From Gemmatimonadota bacterium (GTDB lineage: Bacteria > Gemmatimonadota > Gemmatimonadetes > Longimicrobiales > Gaopeijiaceae), in assembly GCA_003562075.1 (NCBI GenBank), contig PWWP01000096.1, forward strand, positions 1 to 54,490: a stretch of 54,490 nt of DNA, written 5' to 3'. The translations under genes and the position numbers were made by a program. This document shows positions 15,139 to 53,752 of this stretch, one piece after another (the stretch's first letter is position 1; each line of letters starts with the position of its first letter). The notes beneath the pieces were generated by a model. The model searched no databases, was not told where the DNA came from, and saw only the letters and a list, made by a program, of their open reading frames with translations.

Positions 15139-15514
<376 letters not shown>

Positions 15515-15525
15515 ATCCGAAACAA

Positions 15526-15599
<74 letters not shown>

Positions 15600-15616
15600 C
15601 TGAAGCGAAAAGGAGA

Positions 15617-49294: not shown

Positions 49295-50566
49295 CTATGG
49301 CCCCAGCAAGGCAGCCGGGACGACTCCAATGCCATCCGCTCGGCGATAGGCTGCCGAGCCCGTGGTCACGACGACTGCGTCCAGGAGATCTCGGCCCATG
49401 CGATCCCGTAACCACAGAAGGTGCCTGACATCATCGTCGGACACCGTGCCGGCGAGCTTGACCTCCATGGCCAGAACGCGCCTGTCGGGCCGCTCGATAA
49501 TCAGATCCACCTCATGCCGCCCACCCTTGGTCCTTAGGTGTTTGACCTCGGCCTCTGCCGCCTGGGCATATACCCGTACACAGAGCGTGACCAGAGCCTC
49601 GAACAGATGTCCGAGCAAGGTCCCGTCGCGCGGAACGGTGGCCGCGCCCTCGCCGCCTTCGACCAGGGTGTTCACGCCCACCCCGAGCAGGCGGGCGGCA
49701 AGAGCCGGGTCGGCCAGTTGGTGCTTGTCCGGCCGAGCCAGCCTGGAAAAATAGTTGCGGCTCGGCACCCACGCCGGCACGGGGTCGAGAAGCCAGAGCC
49801 GGTGGAGCACGTCCCTGTACTGGATCACCGTGGTTCTCGCCGGCTTGTCGGCCTCTCCCGGCGTCGCGGCGTCCCGGATCGATTCCAGCGTGGCGGTCGT
49901 CGAGGACGCGGCCGCGTATGCCGTCATCCATCGACGCAGCGTGTCCGGCCTGCGAACCGACTGCCCGACCTCCTCGAAGTCACGATCGACCACCCGTGCG
50001 AGGTAGCTGTCGAGTTGTGCGCGTCGGGCTCGGCCCGACAGTGAGCGGATGGCAGGGAACCCCGAAGCCACGATCTCCTCGGCGTACGCCTCCAGCCCGA
50101 GAGAAGTCTCTCCTTCAAGGGACCCCGTTCTACCGTCCAGGAGGTCGCGAAGCCCTACCGTTGGCGGACCCAAACCCCGCTCCGCCAGGCTCATCGGACG
50201 CAACCGCAACCTCACGATCCGGCCTGCACCCGAATGCGTCTCCGGTGACTCCGGCGCTGCCGATCCGGTGAGCAGAAAGCGCCCGGGCCGTGGATCCGAA
50301 TCTACGGAGCGGCGTACCGCGTCCCATACCTCCGGAACCCGCTGCCACTCGTCCAGGAGCACCGGTGGATTTCCGGACACAGCCCGCGCGGGTTCCGCCC
50401 TTGCAACAGACGCCTGGGCGGGATCGTCGAAACGACGCACGGTCTTGGCCCGCTGCACCGCCGTCTCGGTCTTGCCCACCGCCTTCGGCCCCTCGATCGT
50501 GACCGCCGGGAGCCCCGTGAGGAGTTCATCCAGCTCGTCATCGATCACCCTCCGAATATACGACAT
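49295..50566 (-). CDS. DUF4143/AAA-14-type ATPase with nuclease-like C-terminal domain
   Basis: A 423-residue ATPase. Walker A GPKAVGKT is at 26-33 and Walker B in PPVLLDEWQRVP, followed by FLLTGSAAP (sensor region). The C-terminal part is the DUF4143 region with GGRHEVDLIIERPDRRVLAMEVKL, where EVD...EVK resembles a restriction-endonuclease-like (PD-(D/E)XK) core. The family is widespread, often mobile, and has no well-established role. The second ATG (50564-50566) is taken as start, with AAGGGG 6 bases upstream; the first ATG sits directly on that site. Its base use is more GC-rich and Ala/Arg-rich than that of the peptide gene beside it. Within the insert it is divergent from the peptide cassette. 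Confidence 0.88.
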   Translation of the reverse strand: MSYIRRVIDDELDELLTGLPAVTIEGPKAVGKTETAVQRAKTVRRFDDPAQASVARAEPARAVSGNPPVLLDEWQRVPEVWDAVRRSVDSDPRPGRFLLTGSAAPESPETHSGAGRIVRLRLRPMSLAERGLGPPTVGLRDLLDGRTGSLEGETSLGLEAYAEEIVASGFPAIRSLSGRARRAQLDSYLARVVDRDFEEVGQSVRRPDTLRRWMTAYAAASSTTATLESIRDAATPGEADKPARTTVIQYRDVLHRLWLLDPVPAWVPSRNYFSRLARPDKHQLADPALAARLLGVGVNTLVEGGEGAATVPRDGTLLGHLFEALVTLCVRVYAQAAEAEVKHLRTKGGRHEVDLIIERPDRRVLAMEVKLAGTVSDDDVRHLLWLRDRMGRDLLDAVVVTTGSAAYRRADGIGVVPAALLGP

Positions 50567-50631
50567 CGGCATCCCCTTGAATTCAGTGCGACCCCGACTA
50601 AGCTACATCAGGACCGCCACCGACGCTACAT

Positions 50632-51084
50632 TTGGACCAGTATCAAGGCTACGACTGGTCCACTCTCGGGGAAGTTCTTCCGGTGGAGGACGCGGATCGC
50701 TCCATTGTGCTGCTCTTCGATCCTGCAGACGCGTTCTCATGTTTCAGCGGCTTAGCTGCTTGGAATGCGTGGAGTTCGGAGAGCGGAAACGAGTTGACGT
50801 TGATTTTCACCCGCAGTCCCACCCCCGTGGAACGCCGGTTACTCCGCTTCGCGGGAATTCGAGAGGATGGATTGCTTTCGGAGTCCAAATCGTTGAACAC
50901 ACCGATCCACCTGGTATTCGAGGCCGGAGTGGTCCGTGACGTTCGAGAGCACACCACGGACGAAGATGCGTTTGCCACAATTGCTGGGTTCCGGAGCGAA
51001 ATCCGCTCCGGTGGAGCAAACCAGTTTTCCCAGGCGGATTCCCCCTCAACTACAGGAGGCCACCATGAGCAAGAACGGCATTAG
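50632..51084 (+). CDS. Thioredoxin-fold-like protein, N-terminus unclear
   Basis: About 150 residues. The sequence resembles a thioredoxin-like fold: a strand IVLLFDPADAFSC, a helix FSGLAAWNAWSS, a second strand LTLIFTRSP, and TPIHLVFEAGVVRDV toward the C-terminus. Only one Cys sits at the expected active-site position (AFSCFSG), so it is not a standard CxxC oxidoreductase. The start is a TTG at 50632 without a ribosome binding site; there is no ATG or GTG before the upstream stop at 50599, so the gene may be cut at its 5' end or may use an odd start. Its last codons overlap the next gene by 20 bases, so the two are coupled. The fold assignment is tentative. Confidence 0.6.
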   Translation: MDQYQGYDWSTLGEVLPVEDADRSIVLLFDPADAFSCFSGLAAWNAWSSESGNELTLIFTRSPTPVERRLLRFAGIREDGLLSESKSLNTPIHLVFEAGVVRDVREHTTDEDAFATIAGFRSEIRSGGANQFSQADSPSTTGGHHEQERH

Positions 51085-51268
51085 GAGAACGATTCTCTAC
51101 GTCCTAGGTTTTGTCATTGCCATCGGCATGGGCATGTTCACCATGACTCCGCAACCTGCGCAGGCCGTTGACGAACAATGCTGGAGATACTGGATCGCTT
51201 CGTCGCAATGCAATCTCGATTGCGATCACCCTGGAACGTATCCCTGCACCTGCCTCTACTGTTGGTAG
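51065..51268 (+). CDS. Precursor of a secreted cysteine-rich peptide
   Basis: 67 residues. AGGAGG stands 5 bases before the ATG. A basic N-terminus (MSKNGIRR), a hydrophobic helix (about 9-28) and a probable signal peptidase site after AQA (residue 34) leave a mature peptide of about 33 residues with six Cys in the order C-X9-C-X3-C-X7-C-X-C-X2-C, ending in Trp. Four aromatic Trp/Tyr residues lie near the Cys. Three disulfides, a metal site or heme attachment are all possible. It lies between the thioredoxin-like gene (overlap 20 bases) and a propeller lipoprotein gene (33 bases after), all coding in the same direction. I recognise no family; bacteriocin-like, adhesin and signalling roles are all open. 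Confidence 0.8.
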   Translation: MSKNGIRRTILYVLGFVIAIGMGMFTMTPQPAQAVDEQCWRYWIASSQCNLDCDHPGTYPCTCLYCW

Positions 51269-51301
51269 CTGCGGACGCTGACCACTTCTGGAGGCCTGCG
51301 A

Positions 51302-52516
51302 ATGCGGATCTCGTCCCTCCTTCTGATTCTGATCTTCCTGACTGGCACAGTCTCCTCCTGCGGCGATGATCCGGATCGACGGGGGGACGAGGCGGATTCT
51401 CCGACTGCTCAGCGCCCGCTCACTATAACAGATTCTATCCTTCTGGGACCCGGTGAGCAGGTCCACGTGGGGGAACCCTACAACATGGTCGTGGATCATG
51501 GGGGAAGCCCTTCGGCCCCTCACCGGGATATCTGGATCTCGGACAGCTTCTCGAACACGATCTTCCGGTTCGACCCAGATGGCTCCCTCCGGGCCAGAAT
51601 CGGTCAGGCCGGGCCCGGTCCGGAGGAAATCCAGAGCCTGTCTCTCATCGTGCTTCGAGACCCTGACCTGGTTGGGGCATTCGATGCAGGGGGTGCCGTC
51701 AAGTGGTTCGACCGGGAATCGGGTGATTTCTCCCATGCCCACACGTGGCAGAGGACGGAGGTGGGTCGCTCTCAGCCAGTCTGGTCCCAGGGTGAAGGCG
51801 AGAGCTTCGTGGTCTCAGCCCTGGATTTCCGGGGGGCTACATCACTGGCCTACCTCGACCTGGATACCGGAGAGTGGGAGTTCGGAGGTGTGCTGCCTGC
51901 TCCTCACCGTGCTTCTGTGCTCGAGGGCACCGGAGGATTCGCCGCGTTCTTCGGAGTCACGAACATCACCGAACTCGCCCCGGACACACTGTTCACCCTG
52001 GTTTGGGGTGCTCACGACATCGCATATACGTACGATGTTGTTCGCCGACAGATGTCTCCTCTCGGCGAGGTCCCGCAGCGCTTTCGACGCAACTCGGACC
52101 CCGACCTCCCTGACCTGTTCAATCAGATCGGATGGATGCCCGACGATGGTCTGGGGCTCACACTCTCGTCCTTTGCCCAGGGGGTATGGACGCTCCAGGA
52201 CGGCAGGATCGCCGTGGTGCACAGCGACCTGGATGGAGAGGGGACGCCCCCGGCGGTCCACATCTGGAGCTCGTCGTACCTTACCGTACTGGACCCGACG
52301 CGAGACGAAGCCTGTGTGGATCTGGGCCTCCCAGGGGGCAGCGAGGTCCGCGCTCACTTCGATGTAGCCCGGGACACTCTCTTTATCCTCGACCGCCGTC
52401 TACCACAGACCCTGGAGGACACCTCGGACGATCTCGAGACCTGGCTCCTCAAGGCCCCGGTCCCCTCGATGGACGATTGCCCCGCCGCCCACCGAGCTTC
52501 GGGTTGGCTCCACTGA
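51302..52516 (+). CDS. 6-bladed beta-propeller lipoprotein
   Basis: A 404-residue exported lipoprotein. The signal peptide ends in VSSCGDD (Cys20 lipid site). The mature part has blades with the NHL-like pattern, for example YNMVVDHGG...DIWISDSFSNTIFRFDPDGSLRARIGQAGPGPEEI, the classic first-blade motif of the 6-bladed propeller lipoproteins, and TLQDGRIAVVHSD further on. No enzymatic residues are evident; such propellers usually bind other molecules. GGAGG lies 7 bases before the ATG. It is the third gene of the cassette, 33 bases after the peptide gene. Confidence 0.85.
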   Translation: MRISSLLLILIFLTGTVSSCGDDPDRRGDEADSPTAQRPLTITDSILLGPGEQVHVGEPYNMVVDHGGSPSAPHRDIWISDSFSNTIFRFDPDGSLRARIGQAGPGPEEIQSLSLIVLRDPDLVGAFDAGGAVKWFDRESGDFSHAHTWQRTEVGRSQPVWSQGEGESFVVSALDFRGATSLAYLDLDTGEWEFGGVLPAPHRASVLEGTGGFAAFFGVTNITELAPDTLFTLVWGAHDIAYTYDVVRRQMSPLGEVPQRFRRNSDPDLPDLFNQIGWMPDDGLGLTLSSFAQGVWTLQDGRIAVVHSDLDGEGTPPAVHIWSSSYLTVLDPTRDEACVDLGLPGGSEVRAHFDVARDTLFILDRRLPQTLEDTSDDLETWLLKAPVPSMDDCPAAHRASGWLH

Positions 52517-52611: not shown

Positions 52612-52648
52612 ATCAAGGGCTCAAGTCACTCCGGTAGTTCCCCACGAA
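52612..52648 (+). repeat. Direct repeat A, right copy (3' end of the M55 gene)
   Basis: 36 of 37 bases match 49039-49075. It contains the stop codon and the last 11 codons (FVGNYRSDLSP) of the M55 peptidase gene on the minus strand, so the coding end of that gene is part of the repeat. Confidence 0.9.
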
Positions 52649-53536
52649 TTGGAGGAACTTGGCCAATTCCACCATGTCTGCGGCCTGGTGCCGGATGGTC
52701 CGGGAGCCGGCTCGTTCTACGATGGGCAGATAGGACAGGACCTCGGCAGGCCGGTAATTCTTGAAGGTGAGTTCCAGGACCGGTGGGCCGTCCAGGACGT
52801 GGGGCTGGAAGTCGTCCAGCCGTTCCAGGGCGCGCTGAGCACCTTCCCGGATTCGGGTCTGGGCCGCCGCCGGGGTCAGGGTCCGGGCCGAGTGGAACCC
52901 CAGGGCCTCCTTCACCGCCACGCCCTCCACGTCGCCCAGTATCTCCACCATCTCGTCCACGGTGACGTTGTCTCCGGTGACCAGGGCGACGGGGACTCCG
53001 AAGTGGCCGGCGATGGCCGCATTCATCCCGCCCTCCGGCATGTCCACGCCGTTCAGGTTGACGGCGGCGTAGTTGGCGCTGGAGAAGGTGTGGGCCCGGA
53101 CCCCTTCCTCGTTGGTGGCTGCCGAGTGGTACCCGATGAAGAAGGCGGCATCGAAGCTCTCATCGATTCCCTGCATCATGTGGAGGGGCCGGGGCCAGGA
53201 CCGGATGATCTCCACATCGGCGGGGAACCGGTCGATGAGAAGGTTCTGCCCATTCCCATGAGCGTCGGCCACCACGAAGTAGGTGGCGCCGGCGGCCCGA
53301 GCTCCCTCGATGGCGGCCAGCGTCTCCTCAGTGGCGATCTCCCGGAATCGCTGATACTCGAAGCCACCGGGCCCGAGCTGTTCCGGCGTGACTGCTCCGG
53401 CCACCCCTTCCAGGTCCACCGAAATGAAGACCCGGAGGCCTTCACCTGGGTCGGAGGCCGACCCGTCCAGAGGTGGCCCGTCCGTCATGGGGGTGACGAT
53501 CAAGGCTGCGGCGGCGAGGAGCGAAAGGATGGACAT
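52613..53536 (-). CDS. M55-family D-aminopeptidase (DppA-like)
   Basis: A 307-residue zinc peptidase. Signal peptide or N-terminal anchor at about 1-20. Metal-site motifs of DppA: ISVDLEGVAG (Asp41, Glu43), VVADAHGNGQN (Asp91, His93), FFIGYHSAA (His137) and the Glu168 region GVDMPEGGMNAAIAG, followed by GHFGVPVALVTGDN. DppA-type enzymes release D-Ala from D-Ala dipeptides and are linked to peptidoglycan turnover or dipeptide use. The ATG at 53534-53536 gives the signal peptide; a longer reading to 53647 adds 37 residues. The last 11 codons are inside repeat A, so the 3' end may have been rebuilt by the insertion. Confidence 0.9.
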   Translation of the reverse strand: MSILSLLAAAALIVTPMTDGPPLDGSASDPGEGLRVFISVDLEGVAGAVTPEQLGPGGFEYQRFREIATEETLAAIEGARAAGATYFVVADAHGNGQNLLIDRFPADVEIIRSWPRPLHMMQGIDESFDAAFFIGYHSAATNEEGVRAHTFSSANYAAVNLNGVDMPEGGMNAAIAGHFGVPVALVTGDNVTVDEMVEILGDVEGVAVKEALGFHSARTLTPAAAQTRIREGAQRALERLDDFQPHVLDGPPVLELTFKNYRPAEVLSYLPIVERAGSRTIRHQAADMVELAKFLQFVGNYRSDLSP

Positions 53537-53752
53537 GAGGCTTTCCGTGACGAAGAGGGTGATGGCAGGCTTGATGCACGCTTTTCCGCTCTGAGTGGCG
53601 GGGATGGTCCCAGGTGGGAGGTGCCCCACTTCTCCTGAAAGCGGCATTGTCGATCAAAGGGGGAAGCTGGGTTCAGAGGGAGGCGGTGGCAAGCTGGGGC
53701 CGGAAGGCGGAGGCTGACTGGAGTGCTGGAAGCGGGGGGGTGGGACGAAAGA

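Follow-up and report, generated by a model that had tools for sequence, protein, structure and literature searches.

A recurrent cassette encoding a cysteine-rich peptide, a thioredoxin-like protein, and a propeller lipoprotein in Gemmatimonadota

Comparisons of sequences among related genomes revealed that a short cysteine-rich peptide with a predicted signal peptide belongs to a real and conserved family in Gemmatimonadota, and that its gene is part of a cassette that also encodes a thioredoxin-like protein, here called TrxL, and a six-bladed-propeller-type lipoprotein. Both the peptide family and the cassette are apparently undescribed; a literature search identified no paper linking a propeller and a peptide in Gemmatimonadota. 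The cassette was recognized in a contig of 54,490 nucleotides, which we refer to as the window, from a draft genome in 351 contigs that is 95% complete. It contains the following features:

50632 to 51084, + strand: TrxL open reading frame, TTG start, 150 amino acids (sequence, profile relatives, alignment A13, AlphaFold2 topology)
51054 to 51059, + strand: Shine-Dalgarno sequence AGGAGG of the peptide gene (sequence)
51065 to 51268, + strand: peptide precursor gene, 67 amino acids, from the ATG at 51065 to the TAG at 51268, mature part with six cysteines (sequence, relatives)
51065 to 51166, + strand: predicted Sec signal peptide, residues 1 to 34, ending in PAQA (direct reading, putative cleavage site)
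51167 to 51265, + strand: predicted mature peptide, 33 residues, C-x9-C-x3-C-x7-C-x-C-x2-C, net charge -3
51290 to 51294, + strand: Shine-Dalgarno sequence GGAGG of the propeller gene (sequence)
51302 to 52516, + strand: six-bladed-propeller-type lipoprotein, 404 amino acids, lipobox Cys20 (sequence, homologous cassette propellers)

All elements listed in the initial annotation were present in the sequence and its translations, including the six-cysteine precursor of 67 residues, the strong ribosome binding site located five bases upstream of the ATG, the 20-base overlap of the TrxL reading frame (ending at 51084) with the peptide gene, and the 33 bases between the peptide stop codon and the start of the propeller reading frame at 51302. 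The cassette stands alone, since the flanking genes, an ATPase gene with a DUF4143 domain (49295-50572) and an M55 peptidase gene (52613-53647), are located on the other strand. The G+C content is 56% to 57% at positions 50500-51499, which cover the TrxL-peptide stretch, versus 60% to 68% across most of both flanks, a possible sign of a different origin. It was also noted that a class A RNase P RNA is directly followed by tRNA-Arg(CCG) at positions 15140-15600 of the window.

The N-terminus of the precursor resembles a signal peptide, with a K/R-containing n-region, a hydrophobic core, and an A-x-A motif, and the predicted cleavage site lies within PAQA|VDEQC. Cleavage at this site would yield the mature peptide VDEQCWRYWIASSQCNLDCDHPGTYPCTCLYCW, in which the cysteines are spaced 9-3-7-1-2. 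A helix at residues 4 to 26 was predicted by AlphaFold2 in a model of low confidence (pLDDT 59). In a scan for short reading frames with a Shine-Dalgarno sequence, a signal peptide, and at least 3 cysteines, the 54-kb window yielded the peptide gene alone, and a random set of 386 kb taken from related genomes yielded none.

The six cysteines reported for the window peptide are all there, but the motif that is conserved in the family is a core of four, C-x(2-3)-C-x(4-10)-C-x(0-1)-C. Most relatives contained only the four core cysteines, and the outer pair of the window peptide recurred in a single other peptide, that of locus L268 in genome G075, with the spacing 10-3-6-1-2. Three of the core cysteine columns were invariant across 15 aligned peptides, and 24 of the 25 distinct peptides could be read as C-x(2-3)-C followed, beyond a loop, by either C-C or C-x-C, a few of them with additional cysteines. 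The precursors ranged from about 60 to 145 amino acids, and the mature peptides were on average acidic, with a median charge of -3 and a positive charge in 4 of the 25. Many of them ended in a tail similar to P-I-I-V, which is missing from the window peptide.

A search of 57 genomes with the single peptide sequence gave only noise, so profiles were needed. Searches with the two partner proteins identified related loci in which the order of the cassette was kept, including those of G025 and G015, where a thioredoxin-like gene is followed by a gene for a short, signal-bearing cysteine peptide and a propeller gene. A profile built from three peptides detected the peptide in G065, G066, G078, and G087. 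Many more loci in the taxonomic order were found with a TrxL profile, A7, and their neighborhoods revealed divergent peptides in the same company, while a wider TrxL profile, A13, extended the cassette to other families of the class. Both profiles were tested on loci that had played no part in building them. Profile A7 identified 13 new loci, all with a propeller gene and 11 with a core peptide, and profile A13 identified 14 further loci, 13 with a propeller gene and 9 with a core peptide.

When the window is included, the TrxL loci amounted to 36, and a propeller gene was located on the same strand within 1.5 kb in all but L305. A peptide with the core motif was present at 29 of the 36 loci; 23 were counted automatically as signal-bearing reading frames with C-x(2-3)-C-x(3-11)-C-x(0-1)-C, and 6 were added by inspection (L258, L262, L263, L268, L302, and L310). 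A different cysteine peptide was located beside TrxL in L269 and L306, the core motif was in a frame with no clear signal in L260, and no core peptide was seen in L301, L304, L305, and L307. Because some loci are nearly identical (L062, L083, and L102), the independent cases are fewer and correspond to about 25 distinct peptides. The 386 kb of random regions from the same genomes contained no motif peptides, no TrxL matches, and two propeller matches. In 309 kb of regions seeded by DUF5128 propellers, which had been picked without regard to peptides, five secreted peptides with at least four cysteines were found, compared to none in the random set, a modest difference.

The cassette occurred in five family-level groups of Gemmatimonadota, and several genomes contained two or three TrxL loci. 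The gene order was TrxL-peptide-propeller, peptide-propeller-TrxL, or peptide-TrxL-propeller, with the trio staying together, and relatives of the propeller with no accompanying peptide were common. The three-gene unit suggested in the initial annotation, consisting of a redox-type helper, a cysteine-rich peptide, and a propeller lipoprotein, is thereby seen to recur, and the profile searches and the neighborhood survey recovered the short reading frames with conserved cysteines that it had anticipated beside propeller genes in related genomes. A scan of a viral collection with the peptide alignment retrieved nothing, and a search of a plasmid collection with a DUF5128 propeller gave no match. 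In 2 genomes, a fourth gene for a protein of about 620 amino acids with repeated CarboxypepD_reg domains adjoins the cassette (L267, 1241-3103; L268, 6076-7944). We also noted that L100, L103, and L104 carry the title 'Gammaproteobacteria bacterium', although their cassettes or propellers are nearly identical to those of Palauibacter-type Gemmatimonadota; these titles look wrong.

To describe the selection on the three genes, we used pairwise Ka/Ks values estimated with the Nei-Gojobori method from small counts. Within a sponge-associated group (L062, L084, L085, and L106), the values ranged from 0.20 to 0.48 for the peptide, which is close to the 0.24 to 0.50 for TrxL and above the 0.16 to 0.24 for the propeller. 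In the group of L261, L264, L312, and L313, the peptide reached 0.48 to 0.98, compared to 0.18 to 0.26 for TrxL and 0.14 to 0.22 for the propeller, with all cysteines kept. Given the small counts and the pairwise method, these values point to fast change around a fixed scaffold and are not proof of positive selection. The Ka/Ks values were below 1 and every core cysteine codon was conserved in the groups tested. These values and the conserved cysteines next to propeller genes are the opposite of the two outcomes that the initial annotation had named beforehand as speaking against it.

TrxL likely has a thioredoxin fold, as judged from the predicted topology and the sequence motifs, although this is not proven. 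In most of sixteen TrxL relatives, D-P-x-x-C-x-x-C marks the start of the long helix, and a loop farther along, P-hydrophobic-E-L-V, is consistent with a cis-Pro loop. The second cysteine was invariant in all 16 aligned sequences and C-x-x-C was complete in 12, while the first cysteine was missing in the other 4, including the window copy. The AlphaFold2 model of the latter has the order b-a-b-a-b-b-a, which agrees with a thioredoxin core, at low confidence (pLDDT 59). Several thioredoxins and peroxiredoxins were among the weak matches in a fold search, none with an E-value below 0.03, and an alignment of the TrxL profile with a Pfam-recognized redoxin covered the C-x-x-C region with a probability of 27% and a P-value of 0.00066. 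No Pfam or NCBIfam model matched TrxL at the cut-off, and none of the PDB sequences, solved thioredoxins included, gave a significant match.

The window copy of TrxL is somewhat degenerate. Its mature-type domain contains DPADAFSC, with A-x-x-C in place of C-x-x-C, and a cis-Pro-like loop, TP-IHLV. The reading frame is open only from 50602, the TTG is not preceded by an obvious Shine-Dalgarno sequence, and neither a signal peptide nor a lipobox could be read, whereas the TrxL copies of other lineages carry lipobox signals. Having neither a signal peptide nor the first active-site cysteine, it may not act on the exported peptide at all, and the redox step in this genome has probably been weakened or changed, or passed to a different oxidoreductase, and may even be lost. 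We noted that the lipobox region of the G025 TrxL gene contains an in-frame TAG (L061, about 1030-1045), either a true mutation or an artifact of the assembly.

The third protein has a readable lipobox, LTGTVSSC20, and qualifies as a lipoprotein. The most economical reading, to which we lean tentatively and with somewhat less than even confidence, is that the cassette encodes a small cell-envelope module in which the thiol protein assists the folding of the peptide and the propeller lipoprotein binds it. The peptide would be exported by Sec and would become a disulfide-stabilized miniprotein around the four-cysteine core, to which the outer pair in the window genome would add a third bridge. 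A periplasm-facing TrxL lipoprotein, normally with C-x-x-C, would introduce or correct the disulfides of the peptide, or hold it in a mixed disulfide, and the propeller lipoprotein would bind the folded peptide and anchor it at a membrane. At nearly all loci, TrxL and the propeller are neighbors, mostly accompanied by the peptide, and this fits such a dedicated set. The existence and recurrence of the cassette, the conservation of the cysteines, and the signal or lipoprotein sequences can be read in the DNA, whereas we infer the disulfides, the TrxL-peptide reaction, the peptide-propeller binding, and the biological purpose, and the peptide maturation and display or sensing proposed initially has the same standing. 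The bound peptide could be a structural or cofactor subunit, a factor in recognition or antagonism, or a signal.

If it were a subunit, the peptide could be the small redox- or metal-carrying part of a periplasmic propeller protein, loosely comparable to methylamine dehydrogenase, whose disulfide-rich light chain sits on a propeller heavy chain, with TrxL in a MauD-like part. The combination of a propeller, a small cysteine-rich partner, and a thioredoxin-like helper matches the logic of that enzyme, many of the peptides have a Trp or Tyr before the first core cysteine, and MauD/MauE-type genes near cysteine-rich precursors have been suggested as possible peptide-modifying genes (PMC7794033). 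However, the Trp is absent from several peptides, the variable cysteine spacing (x0 or x1, x4 to x10) is easier to reconcile with a loose disulfide scaffold than with a metal site, and neither MauE nor a cytochrome or electron-acceptor gene was seen beside the window cassette. The peptide and the propeller also gave no Pfam matches to the light or heavy chain of methylamine dehydrogenase, and we consider this explanation rather unlikely. A role as a bacteriocin-like factor in antagonism or kin recognition, with the propeller lipoprotein as the cognate receptor or immunity protein, has only a slim chance in our assessment. It would account for the rapid evolution of the peptide around fixed cysteines in one group, where the partners are constrained, and for the several divergent cassettes within one genome, and other secreted peptides, including some with a defensin-type cysteine pattern, occur in Longimicrobiaceae relatives. 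Typical antimicrobial peptides are cationic, however, and the cassette contains no dedicated exporter or peptidase; the acidic charge and the missing exporter speak against a classic membrane-active bacteriocin, and the Ka/Ks values of the peptide in the sponge-associated group are low. The fast evolution in the other group nevertheless speaks for some role in recognition. The boldest reading, which we regard as rather unlikely, is of an undescribed system found throughout the class in Gemmatimonadota, in which a fast-diversifying disulfide peptide would be held at the cell envelope by its own propeller lipoprotein for lineage-specific recognition or antagonism, with a dedicated TrxL lipoprotein as its folding partner.

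It seems improbable that the peptide is a secreted signal that the propeller lipoprotein senses and relays into the envelope. In favor of this, a lipoprotein is encoded together with the secreted peptide, and some genomes have a different cysteine-peptide family close by that has a link to an ECF sigma factor; against it, the cassette encodes neither a regulator nor a transmembrane transducer, be it in the window or in most relatives. We give as little weight to the explanation that the window copy is a decaying and perhaps wholly non-functional cassette, in which TrxL was truncated at the 5' end next to the ATPase gene. The features of the window TrxL described above, the divergent ATPase gene only about 60 bp away, and the in-frame TAG in G025 are as expected from decay. 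The peptide gene has nevertheless kept its Shine-Dalgarno sequence, signal peptide, and all core cysteines, the propeller reading frame is intact, and the single-cysteine form of TrxL also occurs in G025, in a copy about 38% identical, and is therefore not a fresh loss.

Several other secreted peptides were encountered. A second family, of the CCRGDGPEAYCCxACCW type (CCQGEGPEAYCC in L268), was found in L257 (1377-1574), L143 (4392-4607), and L268 (632-823), where its genes adjoin a gene for a multi-pass membrane protein. L257 and L143 also encode a redoxin-like protein in the vicinity, joined in L257 by an ECF sigma factor and a candidate anti-sigma factor. The Longimicrobiaceae-type units at L170 (G048:C186) and L188 (G034:C2) combine one or more peptides, two of them in tandem in L188, with a propeller and a different single-cysteine thioredoxin-like family. 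Two tandem secreted six-cysteine peptides resembling the window peptide, with the spacing 9-3-15-0-1, are located close to lanthipeptide-like precursor reading frames in L087 (4410-4643 and 4759-4992). Secreted peptides in L142 (5087-5314 and 5391-5621, in tandem) and L090 (4334-4576) fit the expression for bacterial CS-alpha-beta defensins (PMC11561630).

The other peptide-propeller-redoxin arrangements (L170 and L188; L143) place the window within a wider habit of the phylum, whose secreted peptides are little studied. A short peptide family with no database model has hereby gained fixed genomic partners, and precursors of this size are easily missed by routine annotation. The cassette points to similar hidden units of peptide, propeller, and redoxin, and no fewer than two further types of these were met. 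If the proposed mechanism is true, it predicts two or three disulfides in the peptide, binding of the peptide to the propeller, and dependence on TrxL.

The peptide matched no Pfam or NCBIfam model at the cut-off. In Bacteroidota, NVEALA peptides neighbor six-bladed-propeller genes, and the cassette is similar in that a short secreted cysteine peptide is encoded beside a propeller-type lipoprotein. The initial annotation had pointed to this likeness and suspected from the cysteine spacing that the peptide was a different one. The latter was borne out: the NVEALA profile (PF14055, cut-off 27 bits) matched neither the window peptide at E<=1 nor, at E<=10, any of ten peptides related or similar to it, it gave no match above the cut-off in the 57 related genomes, and the NVEALA motif is absent before the cysteine region of the window peptide. 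None of the papers searched named NVEALA or DUF6520. A weak match to DUF6520 (PF20130) was obtained for the window peptide, with 18.4 bits and an E-value of 0.0028, and was the sole match at E<=0.1 in its genome, but it is below the cut-off of 25.4, the other cassette peptides scanned gave no match, and no relatives above the cut-off appeared in the family scan. Methylamine dehydrogenase (MauA/MauB/MauD) combines a propeller with a disulfide-rich small partner and a thioredoxin-like helper. The cassette shares this logic, but differs from methylamine dehydrogenase maturation in sequence membership, the six-bladed type of its propeller, the much smaller peptide, and the lack of MauE. A defensin reading was attractive because of the C-x3-C and the later C-x-C, which the window peptide has in common with CS-alpha-beta defensins such as actifensin (PMC11561630, PMC6989792). 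It was rejected, since neither the window peptide nor any of the cassette peptides checked conforms to the expression published for these defensins, C-X(2,18)-C-X3-C-X(2,12)-C-X(4,17)-C-X-C (PMC11561630); the window peptide also differs in that it has no cysteine between the two motifs, is acidic, and is not encoded in a defensin operon. Finally, the window propeller is related to the DUF5128 six-bladed propellers (PF17170); although its own score of 18.4 bits is below the cut-off of 22.9, the homologous propeller in L268 passes it with 28.8 bits.
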